A stretch of 64,000 nucleotides of DNA from Pelagovum sp. HNIBRBA483 (GTDB taxonomy: Bacteria; Pseudomonadota; Alphaproteobacteria; Rhodobacterales; Rhodobacteraceae), in the NCBI RefSeq assembly GCF_040931995.1, contig NZ_CP162412.1, forward strand, positions 2,643,001 to 2,707,000, given 5' to 3'. Under the pieces are notes generated by a model. That model was not told the DNA's origin. It worked only from the letters and a program-made list of their open reading frames with translations, and did no database searches. The translations under genes were made by a program, and so were the position numbers. This document shows, piece after piece, positions 4,871-53,875 of this stretch (the first letter of the stretch is position 1; each line of letters begins with the position of its first letter).

Positions 4871-5581
4871 CTAGTCAGTGGCCTTGGCCGCCCAAAGCGC
4901 GCCACGGCGGATGATTTCAGTGACTTGCGGCACTTTCAGATCATCCAGCTCGTGACCAATGGAACAGTAGAACACGCGCCCCTGATCCCAGCGCCGTTTC
5001 CAGACAACGGGGATCACTGTGCCTTCGATCCACCAGAGATGCTCACCGCTGAAAGTGGTAGTGGCGAGCACTTCGTTCGAAGGATCGACGAGCATGTAGT
5101 ATTGCTCTGACCGCAGGCGGAAGCTCTTGATCCCCTGCATGATCGGATCGGCTGGGCGGGTGACCGTCACGTCATAATCGATGTAGTCCTCGACCGGCTG
5201 GAGGTTATCCGGCCACCCCGGCGGATGCGCGACGAACTGCCCGCCAATCAAGAAGTGATAGGTGGGGCGGTCGCGGAATGCATCGCCCATGTGGCCGTGC
5301 CAGCCCGCGATGCCGCAGCCGTTGGAAATAAGTTGCAGGAGGCCATCCTCCTGAGGCTTGGTTATATTGCCAAACTCGGCCTGATGGCCGGAGCGGGCAG
5401 AGGACCAGATCGGCGTGATCAGATCAAGATCGGCAAGGCGCTCGGGCTCCTCCAGCGGCGCCAGCGTGTCATAGACATCGACCTCGAAGCCGTTATCGCG
5501 CAGGAGCGCTTCGTACCAATCGCTGAATGCTGTGGGGGTGTGGCCTTCCCAGCCGCCGACGAAAAGTGCTGCCTTCTTCAT
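4871..5581 (-). CDS. ThuA-like domain protein
   Basis: A 236-residue protein of the ThuA family, which has a class I glutamine-amidotransferase-like fold and is found in trehalose and other sugar utilisation operons of alphaproteobacteria. The N-terminal GGWEGHTP and the central GCGIAGWHGHMGDAF with the following IGGQFVAHPPG are typical family blocks. The biochemical role of ThuA proteins is poorly defined; trehalose oxidation to 3-keto forms has been linked to ThuAB. The ATG overlaps the stop of the upstream dehydrogenase gene (ATGA), so the two are coupled. Confidence 0.75.
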   Translation of the reverse strand: MKKAALFVGGWEGHTPTAFSDWYEALLRDNGFEVDVYDTLAPLEEPERLADLDLITPIWSSARSGHQAEFGNITKPQEDGLLQLISNGCGIAGWHGHMGDAFRDRPTYHFLIGGQFVAHPPGWPDNLQPVEDYIDYDVTVTRPADPIMQGIKSFRLRSEQYYMLVDPSNEVLATTTFSGEHLWWIEGTVIPVVWKRRWDQGRVFYCSIGHELDDLKVPQVTEIIRRGALWAAKATD

Positions 5582-6447
5582 GGTGTGTCCTTCCTCATGA
5601 AATTCAGGATCGAAGCCATATCGCGCACGGCATAGCCTGCGGCCTCGGCTTCTTTGAGCTTGTCCAATGTGACCATACCTTGCGGCATCGCGACGCCAAA
5701 ATGCTGCGCGAGGGCAGCGGTGACTTCCATATCCTTGCGCGCAAGTGCCACAGTGAAGGTCACGTCATGCGCCGCTTCATCAAGGTAGAGCGGGCGGCGG
5801 TATTTCAGCATCGGGGCGGCGGCGGCAGAGTTTTCGATCACGTCAAAGGCGCGGGCGGCCTCGATGCCAGCGGCCTCGGCTAGTGTGAGCGTTTCCGCCA
5901 AAGTCTGGTTGAGGCCGTGGATGAGCGAATTCACCGCGAGCTTCATCACAGCGCCTGCCGCTGGCGCCCCAAGGCAGATCGTGCCTTTCCCCATTGCCTC
6001 AAACAGCGCCGCGAGGGGGGCGGCTTCGTCATCTGTGCAGCCTGCCATAATCAGGAGCGCGCCATCGGCGGCGGCTTGCGTCGCGCCGGAGACCGGAGCG
6101 TCAAACACTCTCACGCCTTCGGGGGCGGCGGCGATAAGTAAGTTGATATGATCGGGGCTCATGGTGCCCATTTCGATACATAAGCGCGGGCCACCCGCCG
6201 CAAAGAGGCCATCCGGCCCGATGTGAACGGCCTCCGACGACGGATCATCGGCCAGCATGGTCACAACGACATCGCTTGCCTCGGCTAATTCTTTGGGGGT
6301 CTGAGCATGGGCGCAGCCGAGCTCTATGGCCAGCTGCGCCGCTTTTTCTTCGGTACGGTTCCAGACCGTGAGGTCAAAGCCCGCCGACGCGATATTGGCT
6401 GCCATATGCCGCCCCATGCGGCCCAGTCCGGCAAAGCCAATACGCAT
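5578..6447 (-). CDS. NAD(P)-dependent oxidoreductase, 3-hydroxyisobutyrate dehydrogenase family
   Basis: A 289-residue beta-hydroxyacid dehydrogenase. The N-terminal Rossmann motif GFAGLGRMG is at residues 4-12, the substrate-binding segment DAPVSGATQAAADG is in the middle, and the catalytic Lys lies in the segment AVMKLAVNSLI. Family members oxidise 3-hydroxyisobutyrate, tartronate semialdehyde or related hydroxy acids and some reduce sugar-derived aldehydes, so the substrate cannot be read from sequence. The ATG directly abuts the stop of the upstream ABC ATPase gene, and the stop overlaps the ThuA start, showing tight operon packing. Confidence 0.85.
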   Translation of the reverse strand: MRIGFAGLGRMGRHMAANIASAGFDLTVWNRTEEKAAQLAIELGCAHAQTPKELAEASDVVVTMLADDPSSEAVHIGPDGLFAAGGPRLCIEMGTMSPDHINLLIAAAPEGVRVFDAPVSGATQAAADGALLIMAGCTDDEAAPLAALFEAMGKGTICLGAPAAGAVMKLAVNSLIHGLNQTLAETLTLAEAAGIEAARAFDVIENSAAAAPMLKYRRPLYLDEAAHDVTFTVALARKDMEVTAALAQHFGVAMPQGMVTLDKLKEAEAAGYAVRDMASILNFMRKDTP

Positions 6448-7959
6448 TTAGGCCACCTTGCTTGGTACGATCCCCGAGATGGCCTGAACGAGCGAGTCCT
6501 CGGTCACTTCCTCTGCCGTGAACTCGCGCATGACCTGCCCGTGATACATGGCAACGATCCGGTCGGAGACGTGCAGCACTTCGGGCATTTCCGAGCTGAT
6601 CACGATGACGGCGTAGCCCTGCTTTGCCAGTTCACGGATCAGGTTGTGGATCTCGGATTTGCTACCCACGTCAATACCGCGGGTCGGTTCATCCACGATA
6701 AGCACGTTGGGCTTCATCGAGAGCCACTTGCCGATCACGATCTTCTGCTGGTTACCGCCCGACAGGTTGCCGACAGTCTGCCGCCAGCTTGGGGAACGGA
6801 TATCGAGCCGGTCGCGGTACTGGTCGTAGATCGCAATTTCGGCGCCATCTGATACGAATGGCCCTGCCGTAAGGTCATCGACCTGCGGGAGGGTCATGTT
6901 ATCGCGGCAGTTCATACCAAGAACGAGGCCTTGGCCTTTGCGGTCCTCGGGCACGAGCGAAATGCCGTGGCGGATCGCATCAACAGGAGAGGTAATCTTA
7001 ACCTCTTGGTCGCCGAGCATAATGCTGCCTGCATCTGCGTCACGCAGGCCAAAGATCGTCTCTGCGATCTCTGTCCGGCCGGCGCCAACAAGGCCGTAAA
7101 AGCCGACGACCTCGCCACGATGGACCTTGAAGCTCACGTCTTTGTAGAGATTGCCGCAGGAAAGGCCACAGACTTCAAGCGCCACTTCACCCAGTTCAGG
7201 CGCTTGGACATTGCGCGTCAGATCAAGGCTGCGCCCGATCATCAGCTTGGTGACTTCATCCTCGTTGGTGTCCTTGGTAAACAAGGTGCCGCGATACTGA
7301 CCATCGCGCAGAACGCTGATGCGGTCCGAGATTTTGAAGATCTCTTCCATACGGTGGGAGATGTAGATGATGCCCACGCCCTGCTCTTGCAGGTCTTCGA
7401 TCACGTCGAAGAGCACGACCTTCTCCGCATCGGTCAGCGAGGCCGTCGGCTCATCAAAGATCACGGCTTTTGCATCAACGGTCAGCGCGCGCGCGATTTC
7501 GACCATCTGCTGATTGGCGATAGAGAGATCGCCAACACGCGTTTTACCATTGAAGCTCACGTTCAGCTTGCCGAGGATCGCATCCGTTTCCTTGTAAAGC
7601 GCGTCCCAATCGACACGGCCAAAGGATTTGCGCGGCAATTCACCCAGGAAGATGTTTTCGGCGACTGTCAGTTCGTCAGCCAGCGAAAGTTCTTGGTGAA
7701 TAAAGACCACGCCCTTGCTCTTGGCATGAAGCGGCGAGTGCATCACCGTTTCCTGCTCTTCGATGTAGATGGTGCCTTCGTTCGGTTGGTAGATGCCGCC
7801 CAAGACTTTCATCAGGGTCGATTTACCGGCGCCATTTTCACCCATAAGGGCATGAACCTCGCCGGGAATGACTTCGAAAGAGACGCCGTCGAGCGCCTTC
7901 ACACCGGGAAAGGCTTTGACGATATTTTCGAGGCGGAGAGCTGGTTTCGTATCGCTCAT
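6448..7959 (-). CDS. CUT2 (ribose-type) sugar ABC transporter ATP-binding protein
   Basis: A 503-residue fused double ATPase. The first domain has Walker A GENGAGKST and Walker B VIFDEPTASL with the altered signature LSIANQQ common in RbsA-like proteins. The second has the degenerate Walker A GLVGAGRTE, a normal signature LSGGNQQK and Walker B LIVDEPTRGIDVG. This asymmetry is characteristic of CUT2 ATPases. It couples with the two permease genes upstream; its ATG overlaps the permease stop as ATGA. Confidence 0.93.
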   Translation of the reverse strand: MSDTKPALRLENIVKAFPGVKALDGVSFEVIPGEVHALMGENGAGKSTLMKVLGGIYQPNEGTIYIEEQETVMHSPLHAKSKGVVFIHQELSLADELTVAENIFLGELPRKSFGRVDWDALYKETDAILGKLNVSFNGKTRVGDLSIANQQMVEIARALTVDAKAVIFDEPTASLTDAEKVVLFDVIEDLQEQGVGIIYISHRMEEIFKISDRISVLRDGQYRGTLFTKDTNEDEVTKLMIGRSLDLTRNVQAPELGEVALEVCGLSCGNLYKDVSFKVHRGEVVGFYGLVGAGRTEIAETIFGLRDADAGSIMLGDQEVKITSPVDAIRHGISLVPEDRKGQGLVLGMNCRDNMTLPQVDDLTAGPFVSDGAEIAIYDQYRDRLDIRSPSWRQTVGNLSGGNQQKIVIGKWLSMKPNVLIVDEPTRGIDVGSKSEIHNLIRELAKQGYAVIVISSEMPEVLHVSDRIVAMYHGQVMREFTAEEVTEDSLVQAISGIVPSKVA

Positions 7960-8957
7960 GTCTTCAACTCCTCTTTGCCTTTCGCGTTCAACTGACGATC
8001 AAGGAACAGTACCGCGATCAGGATCAGACCAATCACAAGGTTCACCGTTTCGGTATCGGCACCGATATGGCCCAGCCCCTTGCGCAGAAGCTGAATGGCA
8101 ATCACACCGCCCAAGGTCGATATGATCGATCCATAGCCGCCAGTCAGCTTGGTGCCGCCCAGAACGACCGCGGTGATCGCCCACAGCTCATAGAGCATGC
8201 CGTCGTTGGGGTTTACCGAGCCGGATTCGGAGTAGAAAACCACCGCGCTCAGCGCCGCAAGGAAACCGATGATCATGAAGTTGATCAGGAAGTGCGGCCC
8301 GACGCGGATACCGGCATTAACGGCGGCTTCGCGGTTGTTGCCAATGGCGTAGGCGTTCCGGCCATGCACCGTCTTGTTCATCACGAACCAGAAGACCAAA
8401 ACAACTGCGCCGAGGAACCAAGTCGCCGTGTGCAGACCTAGGAATTGCGCTTCGGCAAAGTCCACGAGGGTCCAGTTCAGGTGGGAGGTCGGCTGTTCGC
8501 CATTGTACATGAACACAAGACCACGGAAGCCGAGCATTGAGCCCAACGTGACGATGAAGGCGTCAACGCCGGTTTTCCAGACGATGAAGCCGTTGATTGC
8601 CCCCAAAGCGATGCCCGTCAGCAGCGCCAGCGCCCAGCCAACGAAGATGACGCCATCACCGAGGCCGGCGAAGATCGGCCATGTCATGGAATCCAGCAGG
8701 ACGATGGCGGAGATTGCAAACGTCGCGCCGACGCTCAGGTCGATGTTGCCGTTGACCATGATGATGGTCATCCCGACAGCAATGATCCCGATGGGTGCGG
8801 ACTGCTTGAGAAGAAGCAGCATGTTATCGAAATCCATGAACGCCTTTTCCGACAGGGAGAGGAATTCACCCGCGACGGAGAAGAAGATCAGCTCCACCAC
8901 GATAAAGGCCCAGATGGCGCCCTGTTTGATCAGGTTTGCCCGTGTTTCGCTATTCAT
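7956..8957 (-). CDS. CUT2 sugar ABC transporter permease (second)
   Basis: A 333-residue integral membrane permease, hydrophobic throughout, with the CUT2 loop AIGNNREAAVNAGI before the last helices and the segment AITAVVLGGTKLTGGYGSI typical of ribose/xylose permeases. An upstream in-frame start would give 29 extra residues reading into the previous gene; TGAGGGAG located just before ATG 8957 supports the shorter protein. It begins 11 bases after the other permease gene, so the transporter has two different membrane subunits, probably acting as a heterodimer. Confidence 0.9.
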   Translation of the reverse strand: MNSETRANLIKQGAIWAFIVVELIFFSVAGEFLSLSEKAFMDFDNMLLLLKQSAPIGIIAVGMTIIMVNGNIDLSVGATFAISAIVLLDSMTWPIFAGLGDGVIFVGWALALLTGIALGAINGFIVWKTGVDAFIVTLGSMLGFRGLVFMYNGEQPTSHLNWTLVDFAEAQFLGLHTATWFLGAVVLVFWFVMNKTVHGRNAYAIGNNREAAVNAGIRVGPHFLINFMIIGFLAALSAVVFYSESGSVNPNDGMLYELWAITAVVLGGTKLTGGYGSIISTLGGVIAIQLLRKGLGHIGADTETVNLVIGLILIAVLFLDRQLNAKGKEELKT

Positions 8958-8968
8958 GACGCTCTCCC

Positions 8969-9943
8969 TCAGGCAATCGGTGACAACAGGCGGCCACGCT
9001 TCGCAGCGATGTCGAGCCACACGGCGAGGATGATGATGACCCAAGTCACAACATACTGGACGTAGAACTCCAATCCGACGAGCAGCAGGCCATTCTGGAT
9101 GAAGCCGAGGATCAGCACGCCGATCACGGTCTTGAACACGGTACCAGAGCCACCCAAGAGCGAGGCACCACCAAGGATAACAGCGGCGAGCACTTCAAGC
9201 TCCATGCCCTGCCCGACGGTGTTTTGGCTGCCCAGCGAGCGGCTGGCTTGGATCAGTCCGGCTGTAGCGACGCAGAAGGCCGAGATCATGTAGGTCATGA
9301 ACACAACCCGCGCGCGCGGAATGCCCGAGAAGGTCGCGGCGGTGCCGTTGCCACCCACCGCGTAAACCTTCCGCCCGAAGGGGGTGCGGGTCAAAATAAT
9401 CGACAGGACGATTGCCAAAACCGCAAACATAATGATCGGGACCGGAATACCAGCGATCGAACCCTGACCAAACACACTGAACCAAGTGCCTTCCTTATCG
9501 GCAATGTCCATGTTCTTGCCGCCCGAGTAGGTCAGTGTCAGGCCGTGAATGGCGGAGAGCATGCCTAAGGTTACAATCAGTGAATTCAGCTTCAAATACC
9601 CCACAAGGAAGCCGATGAAGGCCCCGAGGCAGAGCGTCATCGCAAACATCGCGGGGATTGCGAGCGTCGGTCCTAACTTGTCATGCAGGTCCAAGACCAC
9701 AATCGTAGAGAACGACATCATCGACCCCACCGAGAGGTCAAGGTTTCCGCCGATCACCACGAAGGTCACACCCAAGGCCATGACCCCAAGAATGGCGGAT
9801 GACCGGATCACCCCGAATACGTTATCAACAGCCAGAAATCGGTCATTCGCGATCGCGAAACCGATCATGAACAGCACGAAAGCCACCAAAATCCCCTGAC
9901 GGGCCAAAAGCCCGCCAACTGATTTCTTTGTCAGCTCAGCCAT
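8969..9943 (-). CDS. CUT2 sugar ABC transporter permease (first)
   Basis: A 324-residue permease paralogous to its downstream neighbour, with the segment GGNLDLSVGSMMSFS in an early helix (conserved in RbsC-like proteins), the loop AVGGNGTAATFSGI and the segment AVILGGASLLGGSGTVF. GGGAGGAGGA precedes the ATG by seven bases, one of the strongest ribosome binding sites in this operon. It lies between the SDR gene and the second permease gene and belongs to the transporter fed by the binding protein at 10849. Confidence 0.91.
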   Translation of the reverse strand: MAELTKKSVGGLLARQGILVAFVLFMIGFAIANDRFLAVDNVFGVIRSSAILGVMALGVTFVVIGGNLDLSVGSMMSFSTIVVLDLHDKLGPTLAIPAMFAMTLCLGAFIGFLVGYLKLNSLIVTLGMLSAIHGLTLTYSGGKNMDIADKEGTWFSVFGQGSIAGIPVPIIMFAVLAIVLSIILTRTPFGRKVYAVGGNGTAATFSGIPRARVVFMTYMISAFCVATAGLIQASRSLGSQNTVGQGMELEVLAAVILGGASLLGGSGTVFKTVIGVLILGFIQNGLLLVGLEFYVQYVVTWVIIILAVWLDIAAKRGRLLSPIA

Positions 9944-9975
9944 AAAATCTTCCTCCTCCCGAGTGGTCTGTAAGA

Positions 9976-10773
9976 TCAGACCAAGGTCATTCCACCGTCG
10001 ATCATTACGATCTGGCCGGTCATGTAGTCACTGTCTTTGGACGCAAGGAACGTGGTCGTTCCGGTAATGTCGTCCGGTCGTGCGACGCGCCCCCTCAGGA
10101 TCTCGGCAGAAAACTCCTCCATCGCCTGTCCTGGGCGTTCGGCGGCACCGATGGCCATGAGGTCGCGGTCGACCTCTTCCCACATTTCTGTGGCCACCAC
10201 GCCGGGCGCGAAGCCGGTGACGGTGATGTTGTGCTTCGCAAGATCCCGCGCACCTGACTGCGTCAAGGAAACCACGGCCCACTTCGAGGCGCAATAGGGA
10301 GCAACGTTATCGAAACCTTGGCGGCTGGCGATCGACGCGGTGTTAATGATCTTCCCGCCTGTGCCTTGGGCGATCATTTGCTTCGCGGCTTCCTGCATGC
10401 CGATCATGCAGCCGAGCCCGTTGATCCCCATAATAAAATTCCAGTTATCCTCGGTTACATCGAGGAAATTCATCGGCTTGTTGACGCCGGCATTGTTGAA
10501 TTTGACGTCGAGCTTGCCAAAGACGGAAACCGCATGTGCGATCATCGCGCGGACCTGTTCACGGTTGGTCACGTCGACGGCAGCATGGGTAATCTTGACG
10601 CCCGCCTCTGCGGCACGCGCTTCATTTTCGGCAACGACCTGGGCGACTTTTTCCGCGTTGATATCAGCGAAACAGACATCTGCACCTTCGTCGATCAACG
10701 CCTCTCCGATGGCGCGTCCGATACCCTGAGCAGCACCCGTTACGATGCATGAACGTCCCTGAACACGCCCCAT
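9976..10773 (-). CDS. SDR-family oxidoreductase (polyol dehydrogenase-like)
   Basis: A 265-residue classical short-chain dehydrogenase with the cofactor motif TGAAQGIG at residues 12-19, FNNAGV, the catalytic Ser in TASIAS and the catalytic pair YCASK. Its C-terminal half (GFAPGVVATEMWEEVDRDL) resembles sorbitol/polyol dehydrogenases, so oxidation of an imported polyol to a ketose for the xylulokinase is a reasonable inference. An upstream start would add 20 residues, but GGAGGT lies five bases before ATG 10773. It is diverged in sequence from, but clearly related to, the SDR at 13829 on the other side of the regulator. Confidence 0.86.
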   Translation of the reverse strand: MGRVQGRSCIVTGAAQGIGRAIGEALIDEGADVCFADINAEKVAQVVAENEARAAEAGVKITHAAVDVTNREQVRAMIAHAVSVFGKLDVKFNNAGVNKPMNFLDVTEDNWNFIMGINGLGCMIGMQEAAKQMIAQGTGGKIINTASIASRQGFDNVAPYCASKWAVVSLTQSGARDLAKHNITVTGFAPGVVATEMWEEVDRDLMAIGAAERPGQAMEEFSAEILRGRVARPDDITGTTTFLASKDSDYMTGQIVMIDGGMTLV

Positions 10774-10806
10774 CGCTACCTCCAATAATGTCGTAAAATC
10801 AAAGAA

Positions 10807-10832
10807 TGGGGTGCCCTTTGACGGGCACCCCA
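10807..10832 (-). terminator. Intercistronic hairpin after the binding-protein gene
   Basis: A perfect 10-bp stem (TGGGGTGCCC/GGGCACCCCA) with a 6-base loop lies between the stop of the sugar-binding-protein gene (10849) and the SDR start (10773). No T run follows, so it probably protects or partly terminates the upstream message rather than ending the operon. This would favour high binding-protein output relative to the transporter. Confidence 0.65.
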
Positions 10833-10848
10833 CTGCTCTGGGAGAGTA

Positions 10849-11799
10849 TCAGAATACCGGCTTGGTGAACTGATCCATGTTGTCCTGAGTGATCTTCGGA
10901 GTGTCGAAGTAGTTCAGGAACGGCAGCTCTTCACCATTGAGGAGGTCAATAGCGGTCTTAAGAGCGGCTTCAGCGTCGTCAACCGGCGACTGGTAGATGG
11001 AACCCCAGTATTCGCCAGCGGCCATTGCTTCGTAGCCAACTGCGAAGTTGGTTGCGCCTACGAAGATGATGCCTTCGCGGCCAGCAGCGCGTGCTGCGTT
11101 CAGAGCGCCAACGCCCATGTTGTCGTCGCCAGCATAGACGCCGTCGATGTCGTCATACTTGACGAGGAAGGCTTCCATGACCTGCTGGGACTTCTCGCGG
11201 TTCCAGTCGCCCGGCTGCTGGTCGATCTGCTCGACGTTCGGGCAAACTTCCGGCAGGCGGTCGTTGAAGCCCTTGGCGCGCTCGATAGCAGTGGTGTAGC
11301 CCGGCTGGCCAGTGATGTGCACAACTTTGGCTTCGTTTTCGATGCCCATTTCCTTGAACTTGTCACACATGATCTCTGCGGAGCGGATACCCTGTGTGAT
11401 GTTGTCCGGACCGGAGAAGGAAGCGACGAAGTCGAAGCCGGCTTCTGCGATGTTGGAGTTGGTGACAACGACCGGGATATCGGCCTGATGCGCTTTACGC
11501 ACAGCGGGGATAACGGCTTCACCGTTGGTCGGCCAGATGATGATCGCGTCAACTTCCTGCTGGATCAGGTCTTCCATCTGAGCGATCTGGCGGGCAACGT
11601 CGCCGCCAGCGTCCAGAACAACAACCTCTACGTCGGGGTTGGCTTCTGCTGCTGCGATGAAGGCTTTCTCGTAGGTGGTCTGGTAGCTGTCGACGCCCAC
11701 GTTGTTCTGAGTGATGCCGATCGTGTATGTTTCAGCTGCGGCTGCGGTACCGATCATCGCGGTGGTGCAGACGAGTGCTGCTTTTGTCAAAGATTTCAT
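10849..11799 (-). CDS. CUT2 sugar ABC transporter substrate-binding protein (ribose type)
   Basis: A 316-residue periplasmic binding protein of the type I (ribose-binding/LacI-like) fold. The N-terminus MKSLTKAALVC... is a signal peptide with likely cleavage after residue 22 in AAAA-ET. The mature part starts YTIGITQNNVG and contains AIIIWPTNGEAVIP and VYAGDDNMGVGAL, typical sugar-contact regions of this family. A longer frame from 11883 is rejected because GGGAGGAA stands directly before ATG 11799. It is the first gene of the minus operon that faces the regulator at 12010. The ligand is probably a sugar or polyol, not determinable here. Confidence 0.9.
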   Translation of the reverse strand: MKSLTKAALVCTTAMIGTAAAAETYTIGITQNNVGVDSYQTTYEKAFIAAAEANPDVEVVVLDAGGDVARQIAQMEDLIQQEVDAIIIWPTNGEAVIPAVRKAHQADIPVVVTNSNIAEAGFDFVASFSGPDNITQGIRSAEIMCDKFKEMGIENEAKVVHITGQPGYTTAIERAKGFNDRLPEVCPNVEQIDQQPGDWNREKSQQVMEAFLVKYDDIDGVYAGDDNMGVGALNAARAAGREGIIFVGATNFAVGYEAMAAGEYWGSIYQSPVDDAEAALKTAIDLLNGEELPFLNYFDTPKITQDNMDQFTKPVF

Positions 11800-11925
11800 T
11801 TGGGTTCCTCCCGTAGAATTCAGTTCACGATTGCAATCGCCCTCTTCTGCGATGGGGGAATCGCCCCCGCTGCAATCTGCCAATATCCATCGCGGATTTT
11901 TTGAGACAACCTCCTGTCAAATTTG

Positions 11926-11936
11926 TTCATTTTGAA
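11926..11936. promoter_or_regulatory. Candidate operator A of the 12-kb regulator
   Basis: The palindrome TTCA-TTT-TGAA has the half-site spacing of site B, whose centre is 21 bp away. A TTGACA hexamer on the minus strand (11915-11920) is next to it, so a protein bound here could control the binding-protein operon. The assignment rests on similarity to the pair at 52 kb. Confidence 0.5.
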
Positions 11937-11942
11937 TATTCT

Positions 11943-11961
11943 GATATTCATTTTGGATATC
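11943..11961. promoter_or_regulatory. Candidate operator B of the 12-kb regulator
   Basis: A 19-bp inverted repeat, GATATTCA-TTT-TGGATATC, with one mismatch in eight half-site positions. Its centre (11952) lies 58 bp upstream of the regulator start codon, the same distance as the matching site at the paralogous locus has from its best-supported start. It sits between two divergent operons and could serve both. Confidence 0.6.
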
Positions 11962-12009: not shown

Positions 12010-13818
12010 GTGAGTCGTACCAGCCTGCCTCAGCCCAAAATATTCATAGCGGACAAAATGAACACGCAGTCGAGGACACATACTATCCAGTCTGGATACA
12101 GTTCGGATGTACACCGAGCTGGCCCAGAGCTTGAGACGGTTGTGTCTTTTCTCGAACAGCTGTGCCTTGAGGTGGACAGCTCGCTCGATCCGACAGCGCC
12201 AAATCCGTACCTCAACATGAGCCTGCATCTGCTGCGCAGTCATTTGGACGGGCGCATCGTAACAGCCTCCTCGCTGGTTGCTGCATCTGGTGTGCCGTAT
12301 GCAACGGCCACGCGCCGCCTCGCAGAGCTGCAAGCCTCGGGGCTGATAGAGCAGCGCCCGCGCACCCGTTCGGGCAAGAGCTTCTCGCTTCATCCCAGCG
12401 AACAGATGTTGACCCGCTGGAGCGAGTTGGCCGACCGCCTCAACAGGCTCGGCAACAGCATTTTTGGCAAATCCCGCAGCAGTGCGGAAACGACTGACTA
12501 CTATTTTGGTGGTTCCTACCAACCCGGTCAGGGGCTGATCAGCCCGCCACAAGTCATGCCATCGCCACTAAAGCTACAAGGCGGATTGCGGATACTGGTA
12601 CATGGCGATCCGACCTTCATGGTGATGGAGAACCTCAAGCGTCAGTTCGAGCAATTGATCGGCACCAAGATCAATCAACGCGCGTTTTCGATTGACCGCC
12701 TCCGCGAAGAGGCGCTCCGCAACGCGACCCGCACCACCAGCCGCTATGATCTGATTGCCGTGGATCTGCCTTGGCTGGGCGAGTTTGTCACCAAGGGGAT
12801 CGTCAAGCCGCTGAACGAAGTGATGGATGTGGATCGCCTCGACCCGAGCGATTTCCATACCGCCGGTTGGCGCGCCGCGCATTGGGATGGCGTGCCTTAT
12901 GGCGTCCCCAGCCAGACGACGCCGGAGCTGATGTTCTACCGCCGCGACTGGTTTGCCGAAGCCGGACTGGCCCCGCCGACAACAACGCAAGCGGTGCTGG
13001 AAGCCGCGAAAGTGCTGCATGATCCCCGTCACGGGCGCTACGGCGTTGCGTGGAATGCCGCGCGCGGAACGGCGTTGGGCCATACGTTCATGATGACTTG
13101 CGCCGATTTCGGCCAGCCCATCGTCAACCTGCCCGAAATCGCTGGCGGCTACGACGCGGACCACCTGAACCGTGATGATCTGCGCCCGACGATCGACACC
13201 GAGCGCGGTCGCGAGGCCGCCGAATATCTGCTGGCACTGCTGGATTACTCGCCGCCCGACATCCTGTCGATGTCATGGTACGAGCGGGTGCGCCCCTATG
13301 CGGCGGGCAAGATCGCGATGGCTTATGGCTACACGCTGCTGGCGCCGTATTTCGAGCTGGACCCAAGCTCGCCCGCCTATGACAACACCGGATACCTGCC
13401 GCACCCGCACGGGCCAAGCGGCGCACCGATTGCGCCTGTCGGAGGCTACATTTTCTGCATTCCGGCAAACCTCGCTCAGGAGCGCGTGGCAGAAACGGTC
13501 GAGGCGCTGACGGCCTTCACCTCGCCAGAATCGCAAAAGCTTTATGTTCAAAACGGCAGCCGCACGGCGCCCCGCTACTCGGTGGGTGCCGATCCGGAAG
13601 TGCGCCGCCTGTCTCCGATTTTCGAAACGGTGGACCAGATGTCGTGGCGCGACGAACTGCAATTCTGGCCGCGCCCGCCAATTCCGCAAATCTCGGACAT
13701 CATCCAGATCTGCGGCCACGAAATCCACGACATGCTGCGCGGTGTACACAGCCCGCGTGAAGCGCTCGCCCGCGCACAAGCGCGTGCGGAACAAGCAATG
13801 ATGAAGACGGTCACTTAG
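12010..13818 (+). CDS. Transcriptional regulator: winged helix fused to a solute-binding-protein (SBP type II-like) domain
   Basis: A 602-residue protein without signal peptide or membrane helix. Residues about 67-130 look like a winged helix: a helix pair, then ATATRRLAELQASGLIEQRP as recognition helix and wing start. Residues about 190-575 resemble MalE/UgpB-like extracellular solute-binding proteins, with YDLIAVDLPWLGEF, GVPYGVPSQTTPELMFYRRD and AGLAPPTT, so sugar sensing by a cytoplasmic binding-protein fold is inferred. TAGGAG lies seven bases before GTG 12010, which I prefer to ATG 12058 (no good ribosome binding site) or to starts inside the operator region. It is divergent from the CUT2 operon and 10 bases upstream of an SDR gene, probably cotranscribed. 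A paralogue is at 52160. Confidence 0.75.
   Translation: MSRTSLPQPKIFIADKMNTQSRTHTIQSGYSSDVHRAGPELETVVSFLEQLCLEVDSSLDPTAPNPYLNMSLHLLRSHLDGRIVTASSLVAASGVPYATATRRLAELQASGLIEQRPRTRSGKSFSLHPSEQMLTRWSELADRLNRLGNSIFGKSRSSAETTDYYFGGSYQPGQGLISPPQVMPSPLKLQGGLRILVHGDPTFMVMENLKRQFEQLIGTKINQRAFSIDRLREEALRNATRTTSRYDLIAVDLPWLGEFVTKGIVKPLNEVMDVDRLDPSDFHTAGWRAAHWDGVPYGVPSQTTPELMFYRRDWFAEAGLAPPTTTQAVLEAAKVLHDPRHGRYGVAWNAARGTALGHTFMMTCADFGQPIVNLPEIAGGYDADHLNRDDLRPTIDTERGREAAEYLLALLDYSPPDILSMSWYERVRPYAAGKIAMAYGYTLLAPYFELDPSSPAYDNTGYLPHPHGPSGAPIAPVGGYIFCIPANLAQERVAETVEALTAFTSPESQKLYVQNGSRTAPRYSVGADPEVRRLSPIFETVDQMSWRDELQFWPRPPIPQISDIIQICGHEIHDMLRGVHSPREALARAQARAEQAMMKTVT
12084..12098. promoter_or_regulatory. Candidate intragenic operator in the regulator gene
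   Basis: TATCCA-GTC-TGGATA is a perfect 6+3+6 inverted repeat inside the first 90 bases of the regulator gene. It has the same right half-site, TGGATA, as intergenic site B, and the same 3-bp spacer. Its centre is 139 bp from that of site B, which would allow looping-type autoregulation. No experimental basis is visible. Confidence 0.45.
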
Positions 13819-14638: not shown

Positions 14639-14659
14639 CCCACTGCCCTTGCTTAATCA

Positions 14660-14690
14660 GGCGGGCCGGTAACGGCCCGTCGCCTCTTTT
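14660..14690 (+). terminator. Probable terminator or attenuator after the SDR gene
   Basis: A G+C-rich hairpin with core GGGCCG-GTAA-CGGCCC and an outer GGC/GCC extension is followed by CTTTT. It lies 22 bases after the SDR stop. It could end the regulator-SDR transcript or attenuate reading into the M24/E1 genes. Confidence 0.6.
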
Positions 14691-46818: not shown

Positions 46819-46853
46819 GGCCGAGGTGGGCGCAAAATGCGCTCACCCCGGCC
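46819..46853. terminator. Terminator between convergent GH13 and CUT2 permease genes
   Basis: A 15-pair stem with one mismatch and one G-U pair (GGCCGAGGTGGGCGC with GCGCTCACCCCGGCC) and an AAAAT loop starts six bases after the GH13 stop. It covers the last codons of the opposite permease gene, so it can work for the plus strand at least. Confidence 0.62.
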
Positions 46854-48051
46854 CTGCGATTTTCTCGATGCCGCGGTCAATCGACACGGCCAGCACCAGC
46901 AACAGCCCCGTCACAATGAGCCGCGCCTCATTGGCAACGCCCATCAGGTTCAGGCCGTTGGAAACGGTCGAAATAATCATCGCGCCAAAAAGCACACCGA
47001 CGATCCGGCCCCGCCCGCCAAAGAGGCTGACCCCGCCAATCACCGCCGCGGCGATGCTTTCCAAAAGCAGCGCACCGCCACCGATGCCACCGCCAGACGA
47101 TACCGAAACGCCGAGGATTCGCGACGCCGCAAGGATACCGGCAAAGGCCGCAAGGCCACCCGCAATCGCAAACGCCGCGATCTTGATCCGGTTCACATTG
47201 ATGCCCGCACGGCGCGCGGCTTCGGCACTGTTCCCGATCGCATAGAGATAGAGGCCAAAACGTGTTTCTCCGGTCAGGTAGGCGCAGGCCCCGAGCAAGC
47301 CGAGGAACAGGATAATCGGCATTGGCAAGCCCTTGAGGGACGAAAGCACCAGTACCAACACCAGCAACGCACCGCCGATGATTCCCACGGGCAGCAGCAC
47401 CATCTGCCCAAACGAAGCAGGCAAGCGCTGCGCTTTGCGCGTGCGGTAACTGCTCCACCGCACCCAGCCGACGGCGCAAACAGCAATGGCAAAGATGACC
47501 CATGCGCCGGCGCCGCTGATCGTCGTTGATGCGATATCGTCCACGCCGGTATTGAGCAGGTTATAGCGCCCCGTACGCGGCAAGAGCATGAGCTGGATGC
47601 CATTCAGTACAAGGCCCACGCCCAGCGTCACCACGAAAGACGGCACACCGATCAGAGTGATCCACCGCCCCGAGGCCGCGCCGATCAATACGCCACACAA
47701 CACGCCCGCCAGCACCGCCACGGGTACCGGCGCGCCAAAATCGACAACCATCTTCGCCATGAAGACACTGGCAACGCCGCTTGTTCCCGCGACTGACAGG
47801 TCAATTTCACCCGACAGAAGGACGAACACCAAGCCAAGCGCAATGATGCCCGTCACCGTGCTCTGGATCATGAGGTTATTGAGGTTGCGGCTGGTCAGGA
47901 AAACATCGCTTTGCGTGGCAAAGAAGATGAACAGCGCCAGCAGGCCAACCGCCACTGGTACAAACCGCAATTCATTGGCCAACCGATCCGCAAGGCTCCG
48001 CTTCGCTGTCGCCTTGAACGCTGTCTCCAGCCCTTGATCCGCGCTCTTCAT
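46843..48051 (-). CDS. CUT2 sugar ABC transporter permease, XylH-like
   Basis: A 402-residue permease, longer than RbsC-like proteins and close to XylH in size, with about ten hydrophobic helices. GLVFVLLSGEIDLSVAGTSG and LYAIGNSAEAARRAGINVNRI are the CUT2 family blocks, and ESIAAAVIGGVSLFGGRGRI lies near the C-terminus. AGAGGA before ATG 48051 supports that start over one at 48084. It follows the ATPase gene by 38 bases. Xylose or a related sugar is the family expectation; it is not proven. Confidence 0.88.
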   Translation of the reverse strand: MKSADQGLETAFKATAKRSLADRLANELRFVPVAVGLLALFIFFATQSDVFLTSRNLNNLMIQSTVTGIIALGLVFVLLSGEIDLSVAGTSGVASVFMAKMVVDFGAPVPVAVLAGVLCGVLIGAASGRWITLIGVPSFVVTLGVGLVLNGIQLMLLPRTGRYNLLNTGVDDIASTTISGAGAWVIFAIAVCAVGWVRWSSYRTRKAQRLPASFGQMVLLPVGIIGGALLVLVLVLSSLKGLPMPIILFLGLLGACAYLTGETRFGLYLYAIGNSAEAARRAGINVNRIKIAAFAIAGGLAAFAGILAASRILGVSVSSGGGIGGGALLLESIAAAVIGGVSLFGGRGRIVGVLFGAMIISTVSNGLNLMGVANEARLIVTGLLLVLAVSIDRGIEKIAGPG

Positions 48052-48089
48052 TCTTCGGTCCTCTCTTGGGGGATATGGGGTCATGCGGG

Positions 48090-48872
48090 TCAGCCCGCGG
48101 AATTGATGCCTTCTTCGCCACCGACCATGGCGTTCACAACACGCTCGCCAGTGACGTCTTTGGAGGCGAAGCTCGCGGCGTTCCGGCCAAGTCGCAGCAC
48201 TTCGATGCGGTCTGTCACATCGATTACAAAGTGATGAATATCGTGCGAAATCACGAGCACCGCCAAGCCCTGCGCAGCCAATTCCCTGATCAACACGCCA
48301 ACCTGTTCGGCGGCCGAATGGCTCAGCGCAGCGGTTGGCTCATCAAGCAGCACAACCTTCGGCTCCCACAAAATCGAACGCGCGATGGCAATATTCTGGC
48401 GCTGCCCTCCAGACATGGCCCCCACATTGCGATCAAGCGCGATACTGTCGAGGCGCAACTTGCGGAGCACCTGACGGGCGCGCACTTCACATTCGGCGCG
48501 TCGGATACGGCCACCGCGCCACCACGGGCTTGCATCTTCTTTACCCAAGAACAGGTTCTGCACCGCGTCGAGGTTATTGCACAGCGACAAGTCCTGATAG
48601 ACGGTCTGAATACCCAGATTCGACGCATCAGCAGGCCCGTTGATCGCAACAGCCTTACCTTCAAATGTGTACCGCCCGCTGTCCGGCTTCACGACACCTG
48701 CCATAGTCTTCACGAGGGTAGATTTGCCCGCGCCATTATCCCCTACCAGCGCGACAACCTCGCCCGCATGGAGCGAAAGCGAAACATCTGTGAGGGCTTT
48801 TACCCCTCCATAGGATTTGGAGATTCCCTCCAGTTGGAGGATCGGTTCTCGGGCCGAGTGATCTAGGGCCAT
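48090..48872 (-). CDS. CUT2 sugar ABC transporter ATP-binding protein (single domain)
   Basis: A 260-residue ATPase with Walker A GDNGAGKST, signature MSGGQRQN and Walker B VVLLDEPTAALSHSA. Like FrcA, it has only one ATPase domain, unlike the double-domain XylG/RbsA. GGGGAG before ATG 48872 supports the start. It is the middle gene of the binding protein, ATPase, permease set. Confidence 0.9.
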   Translation of the reverse strand: MALDHSAREPILQLEGISKSYGGVKALTDVSLSLHAGEVVALVGDNGAGKSTLVKTMAGVVKPDSGRYTFEGKAVAINGPADASNLGIQTVYQDLSLCNNLDAVQNLFLGKEDASPWWRGGRIRRAECEVRARQVLRKLRLDSIALDRNVGAMSGGQRQNIAIARSILWEPKVVLLDEPTAALSHSAAEQVGVLIRELAAQGLAVLVISHDIHHFVIDVTDRIEVLRLGRNAASFASKDVTGERVVNAMVGGEEGINSAG

Positions 48873-48902
48873 ATCAGCTCCCCTCGCTGTGGATGCGGAG
48901 AC

Positions 48903-48931
48903 GCCCGGCCCCGAGGAACATGGGGCCGGGC
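48903..48931 (-). terminator. Intercistronic hairpin after the XylF-like gene
   Basis: A perfect 10-bp stem, GCCCGGCCCC/GGGGCCGGGC, with a 9-base loop lies between the binding-protein stop and the ATPase start. No T run follows. This is the fourth binding-protein gene in the window with such an element. Confidence 0.65.
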
Positions 48932-48946
48932 AGGACACACCGCAGA

Positions 48947-50032
48947 TTAGAGGTTATCAGCACAGATTGTGGAGTCTTCTGCGCCCTTGCAAACCTCTTC
49001 CCATGTGTAGATGCCAGCATCGACAACGTCAGAGATGTTCTCGATTGTTACGTTGTTCACTGGGAGGAACGCCGCTGGAACATCCATGAACTCGTTGTTC
49101 ACTTCGCCATTCATCCACTCGCTGGGGAGCGGGTCTCCATTCAGGATGGCAACCGACATATCTGCCGCTGCCTCGGCCATCACGCGCAAATCCTTGAACA
49201 CGGTGTTGTCCTGCCACCCTTGGGCAATGAACTGCAGTGCTTCGATCGTGGCGTCCTGACCGCCGGTAACGACGATCTCGCCCTTCTCGTAGCCTTGGCT
49301 GATCAGTGCGGCGACCGATCCACCCGTCGTACCGTCATTCATCCCGAGGAACATATCGACCCCACCGCCGGTACGGGTCAGGCAGTCTTCGGCAAATGCC
49401 TGCGCTCTGACCGGATCCCAGTTCGGGGTGAAGTCTTCACAAACGATTTCGACCTTGCCCTCAGCGATCAGCGGATCGAGGTATTCGTTTTGTCCAAGCT
49501 CATATTGGGTCGTGCCATATTCGCCCTGATTACCTTTCACGCGGGCGATATGAACTGTACCGTCCATACCTGCGATCAACTCGGCAGCACGCGCGCCCTG
49601 CGCACGTCCGACAGCCCGCGCATTGAACAGCACATGGCCCTCGGCCTTGCCGCCAATCGCGTCATGCTCATACAGCAGAACCGGAACGCCTGCATCCTCA
49701 GCGGCCTTCAGCGCACCAGCGGCAAGGTTGGCATCCGAAGATGTGTAAACGATCAGATCAGCGCCTTGGGCCAACGCATCTTCAACAAGGCGCTGCTGGC
49801 GCGTCGGGTCGCCTTCGCCGTTTTGTACGGTCACGGACGCACCCGGCATCCGCTCGGCCATCGCCGCCACAAACAGCGGCGCATCACGGCGCTCGAAGCG
49901 GATCGTGGTGCTGTTTGGCAGCATGAAGAACACGTTCGCGCCCTCCTGCGCGGCCAAAGGGGCCACTCCTGCCACTGCCGAGAGGCCCGCCGCGAGGGCC
50001 GTTCCGAGCATCATTTTCGATGTAAGTTTCAT
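48947..50032 (-). CDS. CUT2 sugar ABC transporter substrate-binding protein, XylF-like
   Basis: A 361-residue type I binding protein with a signal peptide ending near PLAAQ, residue 28. Blocks such as NGEGDPTRQQRLVEDALAQG, GADLIVYTSSDANLAAGAL and GGQDATIEALQFIAQG follow the xylose-binding protein layout. AAGGGAG before ATG 50032 decides the start. It lies downstream of the SDR gene, with which it forms one operon. D-xylose or another aldose/polyol is a family-based guess. Confidence 0.87.
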   Translation of the reverse strand: MKLTSKMMLGTALAAGLSAVAGVAPLAAQEGANVFFMLPNSTTIRFERRDAPLFVAAMAERMPGASVTVQNGEGDPTRQQRLVEDALAQGADLIVYTSSDANLAAGALKAAEDAGVPVLLYEHDAIGGKAEGHVLFNARAVGRAQGARAAELIAGMDGTVHIARVKGNQGEYGTTQYELGQNEYLDPLIAEGKVEIVCEDFTPNWDPVRAQAFAEDCLTRTGGGVDMFLGMNDGTTGGSVAALISQGYEKGEIVVTGGQDATIEALQFIAQGWQDNTVFKDLRVMAEAAADMSVAILNGDPLPSEWMNGEVNNEFMDVPAAFLPVNNVTIENISDVVDAGIYTWEEVCKGAEDSTICADNL

Positions 50033-50082
50033 TTCAGTCTCCCTTGATTGGTCTTTTGTTCCGGCGCCCCTCCCCAGAGGCG

Positions 50083-50958
50083 TCATTCTTTCGGCTTCGG
50101 AAGCGGGGTCGCCTCGTAGCAGCCGATCACCCCATGATCGAAATCGATCACAGAACCCGTCATGATCCCTGACTCAGGCCCCGCCAGATGCGCGATCCAG
50201 CGTGCCACTTCAGGCATCTTCAGCAGGCGTCCAGCGGGTAGCGCCTTGCCTGCCGTTTCTTGCCAGCCATCTGGCATATCGTGGAATTTCTTCTGCGTTG
50301 CATCCTCTGCCGGCGTATCCATCCAGCCAATCGCCAGCGCATTGATGCGAATGCCATCCCGCGCCAGCGAAAATGCGGCATTCTTCGTGGTCGCGACCAG
50401 CGCCGCTTTGGATGCGGCATAAACCGTCAGGAACGGAACGCCGCCATGCGCCGTCACGGTGGCAACATTCACGATCGAGCCGGGCTTGCCCTGTTCAATC
50501 ATGATCTGCGCGGCCCGCTGAATCAGGAAAAACGGCGCCTTGGCGTTGATCTCAAACGTCCGGTCCCAAAGGTCTTCATCGCCATCGAGAATGCCGCCAC
50601 GGTCGGTGATGCCTGCCGAGTTTACCAAGATATCAAGCGTGCCAAATTCGCTCACCGCGCGGTCAATCACCGCCGTGCAATCTGCCCGCTTGCGGAGATC
50701 GGCTTGCTGATAAACCACCTTCTGGGCGCCACTGCTCAGGCGCGCGGCCTGCGCCGCTCCCGCCTCGGCGTTGCGTCCGCAAATCACCGCACCTGCCAGG
50801 CCTCGCTTGAGCATCAACTCGACCGCCGCAAGCCCAAGCCCTTGGGTCGAGCCGGTCACAACGGCGATCTTCCCGTCGAACTGGTGGTCCAGCGCCAGTT
50901 CATTCTGCGATGCCGCATGATCAGCGGCCTGCCCGAAGGGGCTGCGCGACACATTCAT
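50083..50958 (-). CDS. SDR-family oxidoreductase
   Basis: A 291-residue short-chain dehydrogenase with VTGSTQGLG, NSAGITDRGG, the catalytic Ser in NVATVTAHGG-type context and YAASKAA. It has an unusual N-terminal extension of about 30 residues before the Rossmann core. GAGGAG lies seven bases before ATG 50958, and the start lies 10 bases after the dehydrogenase gene. Probably it oxidises the sugar or polyol brought in by the adjacent transporter. Confidence 0.84.
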   Translation of the reverse strand: MNVSRSPFGQAADHAASQNELALDHQFDGKIAVVTGSTQGLGLAAVELMLKRGLAGAVICGRNAEAGAAQAARLSSGAQKVVYQQADLRKRADCTAVIDRAVSEFGTLDILVNSAGITDRGGILDGDEDLWDRTFEINAKAPFFLIQRAAQIMIEQGKPGSIVNVATVTAHGGVPFLTVYAASKAALVATTKNAAFSLARDGIRINALAIGWMDTPAEDATQKKFHDMPDGWQETAGKALPAGRLLKMPEVARWIAHLAGPESGIMTGSVIDFDHGVIGCYEATPLPKPKE

Positions 50959-50968
50959 AGCACTCTCC

Positions 50969-51973
50969 TCAGTCATAGCGCACCGTCACGGGGCGGTTTT
51001 CACGGAACGATGTGATTGCCGCTTCTGAAAGGAGCAACGCACGGCGGCCGTCCTCAAAACTGACGCTCGGGGCGCGTTTAGCCCTTAACGATTCTATGAA
51101 GTCGCGGATTTCGCCCTCGTAGGCGGCGCGATAGCGCTCGATGAAGAAATACAGCAATTCATCGCGGCGTTGGGTGCCCGCGCCGGAGTAACGGGATACC
51201 TCCGTCGGGCGCAGGTTGTTCGACCGCACCATCCCCTCACCGCCAAAAGCCTCGACCCGCTGGTCATAGCCATAATTCGTGCGGCGCGAGTTATTGATGT
51301 GAACCAGAGCGCCAGATTCCGCCCGCATCACGATCATCGCGGTATCGACATCGTTCAGTTCAGCAAAGATCGGATCCACCCGATTTGCCGCCATCGCATA
51401 AACCTCGACAGGCTCCTCGCCCAAAACGTAACGCGCCATGTCAAAATCGTGGATCGTCGTATCCCTGAACAAACCTCCGCACGCCTCTAGGATCGGGCGG
51501 GGCGGCGGCGGGCCAGGGTCGCGGCTGGTGATCACCAGCAGTTCAAGCGGGCCAATCTCCCCCCGCGCCACGGCCTCGGCAACGGCGCGGTGGCTGGGGT
51601 CGAAACGGCGGTTGAAGCCGAGTTGCAACGGCACATCGAATGCGCGCAGCTTTTCGCGGCAATCCTCGACCTTGGAGATATCAACATCAATCGGCTTCTC
51701 GCACAGGATCGGCTTGCCCGCTTCTGCAGATTTCAAGATCAGCTCGACATGCGTATTGGTCGGCGAGGCGATCAGAACCGCATCAACGTCATCAGCGGCC
51801 AGAATGCTGTCCACGTCCGTCGAAGCGCGGGCGCCGACCTTCTCCGCGGTGATACCGGCACGGTCCGCATCCACATCGTAGCACCATGTCACCTCCGCAT
51901 CAGGCTGCTGCGAAATGATCTCGGCGTGCATCTCCCCGATACGGCCAGTTCCAAGGACAGCAAATCGCGTCAC
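50969..51973 (-). CDS. iolG: Inositol 2-dehydrogenase-like Gfo/Idh/MocA oxidoreductase
   Basis: A 334-residue NAD-dependent dehydrogenase. The Rossmann motif VLGTGRIGEMHAE is near residues 6-18, the active-site Lys lies in ILCEKPIDVD, and the segment GGLFRDTTIHDFDMARYVLG holds the catalytic Asp and His characteristic of IolG. GGGGAG lies before GTG 51973, which I prefer to ATG 51988, because that ATG overlaps the ribosome binding site. It is the first gene of the operon divergent from the second solute-binding-type regulator. No other inositol genes are nearby, so a different cyclitol or sugar substrate is possible. Confidence 0.8.
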   Translation of the reverse strand: MTRFAVLGTGRIGEMHAEIISQQPDAEVTWCYDVDADRAGITAEKVGARASTDVDSILAADDVDAVLIASPTNTHVELILKSAEAGKPILCEKPIDVDISKVEDCREKLRAFDVPLQLGFNRRFDPSHRAVAEAVARGEIGPLELLVITSRDPGPPPPRPILEACGGLFRDTTIHDFDMARYVLGEEPVEVYAMAANRVDPIFAELNDVDTAMIVMRAESGALVHINNSRRTNYGYDQRVEAFGGEGMVRSNNLRPTEVSRYSGAGTQRRDELLYFFIERYRAAYEGEIRDFIESLRAKRAPSVSFEDGRRALLLSEAAITSFRENRPVTVRYD

Positions 51974-52049
51974 GCTCCATCTCCCCATGTGATCTTGTTT
52001 CGAGGATCAGGTTAACTCGTCTCTGCCAACCGGACTCAGGTGCATTCTG

Positions 52050-52060
52050 TCCACTCTGGA
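52050..52060. promoter_or_regulatory. Candidate operator C of the 52-kb regulator
   Basis: TCCA-CTC-TGGA is a palindromic core with a 3-bp spacer. Its centre is 22 bp from that of site D, matching the 21-bp distance between sites A and B at the paralogous locus. Confidence 0.5.
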
Positions 52061-52066
52061 ATAGAT

Positions 52067-52087
52067 AAAATTCCATCTTGGAATTTT
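52067..52087. promoter_or_regulatory. Candidate operator D of the 52-kb regulator
   Basis: A perfect inverted repeat, core AAATTCCA-TCT-TGGAATTT, extends to nine bases per arm around a 3-bp spacer. Its centre (52077) lies 58 bp before ATG 52135, the same distance as site B has from the start of the paralogous regulator. Confidence 0.65.
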
Positions 52088-52159: not shown

Positions 52160-53875
52160 ATGAAACATCGCCCCCCTACAGAAATGTCGGAACTGGAACT
52201 CCAGCGGTTCGTCGATTTCTTCGCGCAATACGTCTCAGAAACCGAAACAGCGCTGGGGCTTCAGAACGGACTCAGGGAGATTCGCGTGGCGCTTCCCCTG
52301 CTCAAGGGGCACTTCGAAGGCCGCTACGAAACGCCCTCTTCGCTGATCGACAGGTCCGGCCTGCCGCGTGGCACGGGGCATCGGACAATCGAGACAATGG
52401 TCGATCAAGGCCTGATCCTAAAGCGCCAGCGCACCAAAACCGGCAAGACATTCACCCTGCACCCCAGCGCCCAAATGCTGCAACAATGGCTCGACTATGC
52501 GCGCCGGATCAAATCGCTGGTCGGCTCGGTTTTCGGGCTCTCAAGCGGGCAAGACTACTTCTTTGGGGCTTCTTATCTGTCGAATGCCGTCATCTCCCCG
52601 CTCGAAGTGATGGGCGAGACGCTCAAGCTCAGGGGTGATCTGCGGGTTCTCCTCCACGCCGACCCCGCCTTCATGGCAATGCAACGCGTGCGCAAACAGT
52701 TCGAGGTCCATTTTGGAACGGACATCAACGTCCGCGCCCTCAGCATTGACCGGCTCCGTCAGGAAATTCTGTCCAACACGGAACTACAGCATTCCAAATA
52801 CGATATCGTCACCTGTGATCTTTGCTGGATGCCCGAAATGATCGAACGTGGCGTCTTGCGCCCCATCGGGCGGCTTGATGACGCTGACTTTCCTGACCTT
52901 CAGGACTTCCACCCCGAAGCACTCTCCACCGCCGTCGCCGGAAACGAGCTGTTTGGCCTACCCGTCCAAACCACGCCGGAGCTGTTGATATACCGAAAGG
53001 ACATCTTCGAGACGCAGAACCTAACCCCGCCGGAAACGCTCGATGACATGCTGTCCGTCGCCCAGCAGTTGCACAACACCGAGCCTGACATGGCCGGTAT
53101 CTGCTGGAACGGCGCACACGGGACGCCAGTTGGCACGACATTCATGATGTTGATGGCCGACTTTGGCCAACCCGTGCTCGATCTCCCACCCCGCGGCGGC
53201 GGTTTCGCCAACCGTCCGCGCCTCCCCGAACAAAACCGCCCGCTGCTCAACAGCCCCGAAGCAATTGAGGCAGCCGAATACCTACTGGAACTGCGCCGAT
53301 ACTCGCCCGATACCGTGCTGCAAATGTCATGGTATGAACGCGCCCTGTGCTATGCCGAAGGGCGTGCTGCGATGGCCTATTGCTACACGCAAATCTCGCA
53401 GCTTTATGAAAGCGACGACCAATCGCCCGCCTACCGGCAAACCGGCTATACGCTCCACCCCAACAAACACGCCGATCAGCGGATCGCGCCGCTCGGCGGC
53501 TGGATGCTCTGCGCGCCCGTAAACCTCCCCGATGCACGGCTGGACGAGGTACGCCGTGCGATCTCGGGCCTCAGTTCACCGCAGGCAACCAAGCTCTACA
53601 TTCAAAACGGCAGCATGGTCAGCTCGCGCTTCAGCGTTTGCAATGACCCTTCCGTCGCGCATGAACATCCAACGATCCCGATCGTTGACCGCATGGCGCG
53701 GTCGGGAAAGCTGCAAATGTGGCCCCGCCCCGCAGTGCCCGAGCTGAACCGGATCGTGACGATTCTGGGGGACGAAATCCACACAATGCTCCTGCGGAAC
53801 AAGCGCCCGAAGGAAGCACTGCGCGATGCCCAAGCCAAGATCGACAAGCTGATGCGCGAGGAAGGTCATTACTGA
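52160..53875 (+). CDS. Second winged-helix/solute-binding-fold transcriptional regulator (possible frameshift near start)
   Basis: A 571-residue paralogue of the 12010 protein. Residues about 30-105 form the winged helix (RGTGHRTIETMVDQGLILKR), and about 160-545 the MalE/UgpB-like fold with QTTPELLIYRKD, TTFMMLMADFGQPVLDLP and MSWYERALCYAEGRAAMAY. No signal peptide is present. ATG 52160 has no good ribosome binding site. AAGGGG five bases before ATG 52135 is strong, but that frame differs by one base and would join this one if the C run at 52171-52176 had five instead of six bases. It is divergent from the iolG-like/CUT2 operon. Confidence 0.75.
   Translation: MKHRPPTEMSELELQRFVDFFAQYVSETETALGLQNGLREIRVALPLLKGHFEGRYETPSSLIDRSGLPRGTGHRTIETMVDQGLILKRQRTKTGKTFTLHPSAQMLQQWLDYARRIKSLVGSVFGLSSGQDYFFGASYLSNAVISPLEVMGETLKLRGDLRVLLHADPAFMAMQRVRKQFEVHFGTDINVRALSIDRLRQEILSNTELQHSKYDIVTCDLCWMPEMIERGVLRPIGRLDDADFPDLQDFHPEALSTAVAGNELFGLPVQTTPELLIYRKDIFETQNLTPPETLDDMLSVAQQLHNTEPDMAGICWNGAHGTPVGTTFMMLMADFGQPVLDLPPRGGGFANRPRLPEQNRPLLNSPEAIEAAEYLLELRRYSPDTVLQMSWYERALCYAEGRAAMAYCYTQISQLYESDDQSPAYRQTGYTLHPNKHADQRIAPLGGWMLCAPVNLPDARLDEVRRAISGLSSPQATKLYIQNGSMVSSRFSVCNDPSVAHEHPTIPIVDRMARSGKLQMWPRPAVPELNRIVTILGDEIHTMLLRNKRPKEALRDAQAKIDKLMREEGHY

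Follow-up and report, generated by a model that had tools for sequence, protein, structure and literature searches.

Two proteins encoded in the window, the whole stretch of 64,000 nucleotides analysed here, are almost certainly gene switches of a kind that is labelled elsewhere as exported sugar-binding proteins. It is very probable that both are cytoplasmic one-component regulators, in which a winged helix acts on ATCCA-N3-TGGAT boxes and a captured CUT1/MalE-type sensor switches a CUT2 operon. Their architecture, fold, conservation, genome context and the box were computed, and the features of the two proteins are as follows.

12010..13818, + strand: regulator 1 (P0001), wHTH and SBP_bac_1, 602 aa (Pfam, AlphaFold2 model, Foldseek)
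12265..12396, + strand: regulator 1, HTH helices and wing, residues 86-129 (model secondary structure; Pfam MarR_2/HTH_IclR)
12577..13815, + strand: regulator 1, type II (SBP_bac_1, MalE-like) sensor domain, residues ~190-602 (Pfam, model, Foldseek)
52160..53875, + strand: regulator 2 (P0002), wHTH and SBP_bac_1, 571 aa (Pfam, AlphaFold2 model, Foldseek)
52334..52465, + strand: regulator 2, HTH helices and wing, residues 59-102 (model secondary structure)
52631..53872, + strand: regulator 2, type II (SBP_bac_1) sensor domain, residues ~158-571 (Pfam, model, Foldseek)

Domain architecture and fold

A preliminary description of this DNA had placed the same architecture twice in the window, and both open reading frames are indeed intact at these coordinates. 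Regulator 1 starts with GTG at 12010, which is preceded by AGGAG and replaced by ATG at the same site in the closest relative (L022); regulator 2 starts with ATG at 52160. The two proteins are 43% identical in the SBP part and 37% identical in the N-terminal domain, and the blocks that had been reported as common to them (TTPEL, TFMM, ADFGQP, MSWYER, QNGS) are present in both. A third full-length paralogue is found in the same genome at C1:30736-32439, at the far end of the chromosome contig. About 10 kb from this paralogue, a headless C-terminal piece is what is left of another HTH-SBP regulator (G000:C1:42359-42892, equal to L044:17857-18552 on the - strand). It adjoins a type I binding-protein gene and is a decaying regulator copy.

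The SBP_bac_1 domain (PF01547) is matched in both regulators by Pfam, with 88.6 and 63.9 bits against a cut-off of 26 (E 1e-24 and 3e-17), and it was found in every full-length homologue tested. The winged helix stays below the Pfam threshold in both window proteins (MarR_2/HTH_IclR, E 4e-4 to 0.03). Its presence is independently confirmed by the distant Paraburkholderia homologue L043, which passes the HTH_IclR cut-off with 31.0 bits against 22. It is also confirmed by a profile built from 15 N-terminal domains, for which the top PDB matches are the DNA-binding TubR and then SlyA/MarR regulator structures. AlphaFold2 models, for which the input alignment consisted of 14 homologues, reached a pLDDT of 82 for regulator 2 and 74 for regulator 1. 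Both models show the same order of elements: two helices, the HTH helix pair, a two-stranded wing, a long helix of ~21 residues, a linker of low confidence and a complete, two-lobed SBP. In Foldseek searches, 5IAI was the top match for both (target-normalised TM 0.88 and 0.87; E 4e-27 and 5e-28). By sequence, the nearest solved structures are the CUT1 binding proteins 1EU8 and 5IAI, and the profile search gives 5IAI at 1e-44. Consequently, the proposal that a winged helix is joined to a type II SBP fold is borne out for both proteins, with Pfam, PDB profile searches, structure prediction and fold search in agreement.

The absence of a signal peptide had also been predicted. Judged by hydropathy, neither regulator has a hydrophobic N-terminal stretch or the signal peptide typical of exported ABC binding proteins, unlike the exported relatives L033, L018 and L019. 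Both proteins are soluble and consist of a winged helix followed by a complete CUT1/MalE-type fold. NCBIfam holds no family name for either of them, and annotated homologues in plasmid records are called "extracellular solute-binding protein", which is the mislabelling that the preliminary description had foreseen.

Distribution and relationships of the family

Homologues of the regulators occur in Rhodobacterales, Rhizobiales, Skermanella and Paraburkholderia. Relatives with 57-88% identity are found in Marivivens, Roseivivax, Nioella, Roseovarius and others, and more distant ones in Agrobacterium, Rhizobium, Shinella, Sinorhizobium, Skermanella and Paraburkholderia. At least one homologue is present in 36 of the 199 genomes of the window's own family (Rhodobacteraceae) and in 6 of the 398 genomes of a phylum-wide sample; the genome from which the window comes is among those counted in either case. 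In nearly all cases, the match extends over both the winged helix and the SBP. Because the fusion recurs in dozens of genomes, an assembly artefact is ruled out, as had been argued from the two copies. The family is conserved across many marine and soil bacteria, where it is found beside sugar-uptake genes. In L002 and L005, a pair of distinct HTH-SBP regulators is separated by no more than ~10 kb, with CUT2 genes in between, which suggests that the family may also occur as paired regulators.

The blocks TTPEL, WNGARGTP, ADFGQP, WYER and GGW are conserved among the regulators. The exported relative L033 has altered versions of several of them. The tree fails to place the exported SBP-only relatives, since long branches meet and the SBP-only proteins group at just 56/61 support; L033 may be either an ancestor-like SBP or a regulator after loss of its head. 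At L046:8246-9592 (- strand), an exported SBP without a winged helix adjoins CUT1 permeases and shares 40% identity with the sensor of regulator 1. This protein may represent the ancestral state, or else a former regulator whose head was lost.

Genome context

Most homologues adjoin an operon for a CUT2 sugar ABC transporter, which comes with a binding protein of the type I fold. In the window, the presumed target operons diverge from the regulator genes.

10849..11799, - strand: gene for a type I (CUT2) sugar-binding protein, divergent from regulator 1, which opens the presumed target operon and has its ATG at 11799 (sequence, annotated relatives)
4871..10833, - strand: remainder of the presumed operon, with SDR, two CUT2 permeases, CUT2 ATPase, NAD-binding dehydrogenase and ThuA-like protein (sequence reading; annotated counterparts)
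46843..51988, - strand: divergent presumed operon, with Gfo/Idh dehydrogenase, SDR, type I binding protein, CUT2 ATPase and CUT2 permease (Pfam; BLAST to annotated relatives for Gfo/Idh)

The context of CUT2 genes and a type I binding protein is seen in Rhodobacterales, Skermanella, Agrobacterium and the 1.4-Mb alphaproteobacterial genome G054, and hence holds for distantly related regulators too. Other frequent neighbours are Gfo/Idh and SDR dehydrogenases, ThuA-like proteins and sugar isomerases. In Paraburkholderia, the neighbourhood is limited to iolG and the genes for a type I binding protein and a hydroxypyruvate isomerase. Exported relatives that consist of the SBP alone, L033 (40% identity to regulator 1) and L018, adjoin CUT1 permeases and a MalK-type ATPase. 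Since these relatives stand beside CUT1 genes and the regulators beside CUT2 genes, the sensor domain looks like a captured CUT1 binding protein that today serves CUT2 operons.

Several other features of the window can be described here. An alpha-glucoside-like cluster at 38295-46813 comprises GH4, a CUT1 transporter with a type II binding protein, a LacI regulator and GH13. The ordinary LacI protein (44079-45104) has a type I sensor, while the binding protein of the adjoining CUT1 operon is of type II, which is the reverse of the fold pairing at the HTH-SBP loci. The CUT2 ATPases at 670-1521 and 48090-48938 have 282-283 residues, about half the length of the two-domain RbsA-type ATPase at 6448-7959. 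The block at 13829-21764 encodes an SDR, a creatinase/Xaa-Pro-peptidase-like protein, TPP-dependent E1 alpha/beta, a lipoyl protein, an aldehyde dehydrogenase and E2, and from these genes it is a predicted catabolic pathway. It is kept downstream of relatives of regulator 1 in Phaeobacter and G016, and partly in G015 and G054.

A predicted operator box

Alignment of intergenic regions, which included the window loci when the box first appeared, revealed a recurring palindrome, ATCCA-N3-TGGAT. The corresponding sites in the window carry no strand.

11925..11937: degenerate box GTTCATTTTGAAT, predicted to form a tandem operator with the box that follows at 21 bp (intergenic alignment)
11946..11958: predicted operator ATTCATTTTGGAT, one mismatch to WTCCANNNTGGAW (motif scan)
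12085..12097: exact box ATCCAGTCTGGAT, within the 5' coding region of regulator 1 (motif scan)
52049..52061: predicted operator GTCCACTCTGGAA (motif scan)
52071..52083: exact box TTCCATCTTGGAA, predicted operator that follows the box at 52049 by 22 bp (motif scan)

Exact matches to WTCCANNNTGGAW occur twice in the window (12085 and 52071; expected 0.24), both times at the regulators. In the 3.04-Mb genome, the exact box is present at 8 places, three of which are at the three regulator genes, and the reversed-pattern control gives 2. The third paralogue, which was not among the loci that defined the motif, has an exact box in its own promoter. Degenerate partner boxes are found at a distance of 21-22 bp (11925/11946 and 52049/52071), and at nine loci, two boxes are exactly 21 bp apart. 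The core was found in 16 of 28 regulator promoters (expected 0.7), a set in which orthologues share ancestry and of which a part served to define the motif. Thirty-six further promoters, previously unused, contained the strict core in 14 cases (expected 1.6, P 1.5e-10) and the degenerate form TYCA-N3-TGRA in 23 (expected 3.4); such P values are optimistic, as the promoters were treated as independent despite being orthologous. The control loci and the genome-wide count agree in direction with this enrichment. In an unsupervised ranking of 2,816 spaced palindromes, the best four were the ATCCA-N3-TGGAT box or its tandem spacing.

A clear box is absent at L040, L043 and L048 and at about one third of the 36 further promoters. 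A search for two exact tandem boxes as one pattern gave zero matches, since in most pairs one of the two boxes is degenerate. The five other box sites in the genome show no clear further target, and most of them lie within coding sequence. Scans for sigma-70-type promoters found none in the intergenic region of either regulator. Taken together, the pattern of occurrence makes ATCCA-N3-TGGAT the probable operator of the HTH-SBP regulators.

Proposed mechanism and alternatives

Domain searches, structure prediction, genome context and the common palindromic box all speak for the reading of both proteins as cytoplasmic regulators, which the preliminary description had put forward. For the steps by which they would act, we infer dimerisation, box binding, ligand binding, an oligomer state and a switch. 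The winged helix is preceded by a helix and followed by a long one that probably dimerises. As a dimer, the IclR/MarR-like winged helix would bind palindromes of the ATCCA-N3-TGGAT type in the intergenic region common to the regulator and the CUT2 operon. The usual target would be two boxes 21-22 bp, or two helical turns, apart, and this spacing suggests a dimer of dimers on one face of the DNA. The C-terminal domain would descend from an exported binding protein of the CUT1/MalE class whose signal peptide has disappeared. Its probable ligand is the sugar or polyol that is imported, or else a compound formed early in its catabolism, around which the clamshell would close in the cytoplasm. The closure may alter the geometry of the two DNA-binding heads and thus switch the divergent operon and probably the regulator's own gene too. 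There is a slight lean towards repression that is relieved by the ligand.

It is unlikely that the proteins are regulators whose SBP no longer binds a small ligand and is instead a dimerisation or docking module, for example one that senses cytoplasmic parts of the transporter. A role in protein contact is conceivable, since some exported SBP relatives contact CUT1 permeases. Nevertheless, the five blocks conserved among the regulators, several of them modified in the exported L033, argue against such a loss of binding, and so does the tree, in which the SBP has diversified between regulators that adjoin different operons. The boxes could also be owned by another regulator, such as a LacI or IclR protein, with the HTH-SBP proteins controlling other targets. 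The box is a common type of palindrome and is missing at some regulator loci; on the other side, it tracks the regulator gene across genera and stands in exact form before the distant third paralogue, which makes this explanation quite improbable.

An exported (periplasmic) binding protein with an unusual N-terminal extension, as automatic annotation implies, would fit the label in the plasmid records. It is extremely improbable, given that the N-terminal hydrophobic segment of the exported relatives is missing, the wHTH is conserved and an operator-like box is found in the promoters. The preferred reading therefore stays that of a cytoplasmic regulator with a ligand-binding sensor.

Significance

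A whole regulator family is hidden in databases under the name "extracellular solute-binding protein". Its recognition corrects the annotation in 36 of 199 sampled Rhodobacteraceae genomes and yields an operator that can be tested. The family would also provide a natural example of a MalE-class clamshell rewired into a genetic switch, which is useful for studies on sensor evolution and for sugar biosensors.

Comparison with known systems

SBP Pfam domains have been recognised as sensors of transcriptional regulators (PMC9602780). In SgrR and its Vibrio relative DsvR (Vca0578), an HTH is joined to an SBP_bac_5 domain, and these proteins resemble the window regulators in having an N-terminal HTH, a C-terminal type II SBP, a cytoplasmic location and a tie to sugar metabolism (PMC13060122). 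They differ in their sensor (SBP_bac_5, the peptide-binding class, as opposed to SBP_bac_1), in their HTH (SgrR_N as opposed to an IclR/MarR-like one) and in their context (sgrS/setA as opposed to CUT2 operons). The window regulators gave no PF00496 match, and SgrR_N was matched in only one of 15 N-terminal domains, with E 0.01. LysR regulators also combine a winged-helix head with a periplasmic-binding-protein-like II effector domain (PMC5882156), whereas the sensor of the window regulators is a full CUT1-class SBP of ~410 residues; HTH_1 and LysR_substrate were both unmatched in them by Pfam. The preliminary description had spoken of an undescribed regulator class. In general, this claim is too strong, since the cytoplasmic sensors of SgrR/DsvR and LysR are type II folds as well. 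It is the family that unites an IclR/MarR-like wHTH with SBP_bac_1 (MalE/CUT1) that appears to be undescribed, as no description was found in the open-access literature, which does not prove the absence of one.

The nearest DNA-binding families are the winged helices of IclR and MarR. The window regulators are not single-domain MarR proteins and lack a Pfam match to the IclR effector domain, in place of which the C-terminus is SBP_bac_1. In Firmicutes, GntR is fused with SBP_bac_8; PF00392, the GntR HTH, was unmatched in the window regulators by Pfam. The CUT1 binding proteins 5IAI, 1EU8 and 4RYA have the same fold, with ~20-22% identity over ~400 residues, but they are exported transporter components without a DNA-binding domain.

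LacI/GalR proteins are likewise regulators of sugar operons with a sensor derived from a sugar-binding-protein fold. They have the type I fold and the LacI HTH, whereas the window regulators have the type II fold and a wHTH; Pfam matched neither the LacI HTH nor the type I domain in the latter and matched both in the true LacI at 44079. On balance, we favour the view that Alpha- and Betaproteobacteria have an undescribed family that controls CUT2 operons by means of an IclR/MarR-like winged helix with a captured CUT1 binding protein for its cytoplasmic sensor, as a mirror image of LacI, with tandem boxes that suggest a tetramer whose grip would be set by clamshell closure.
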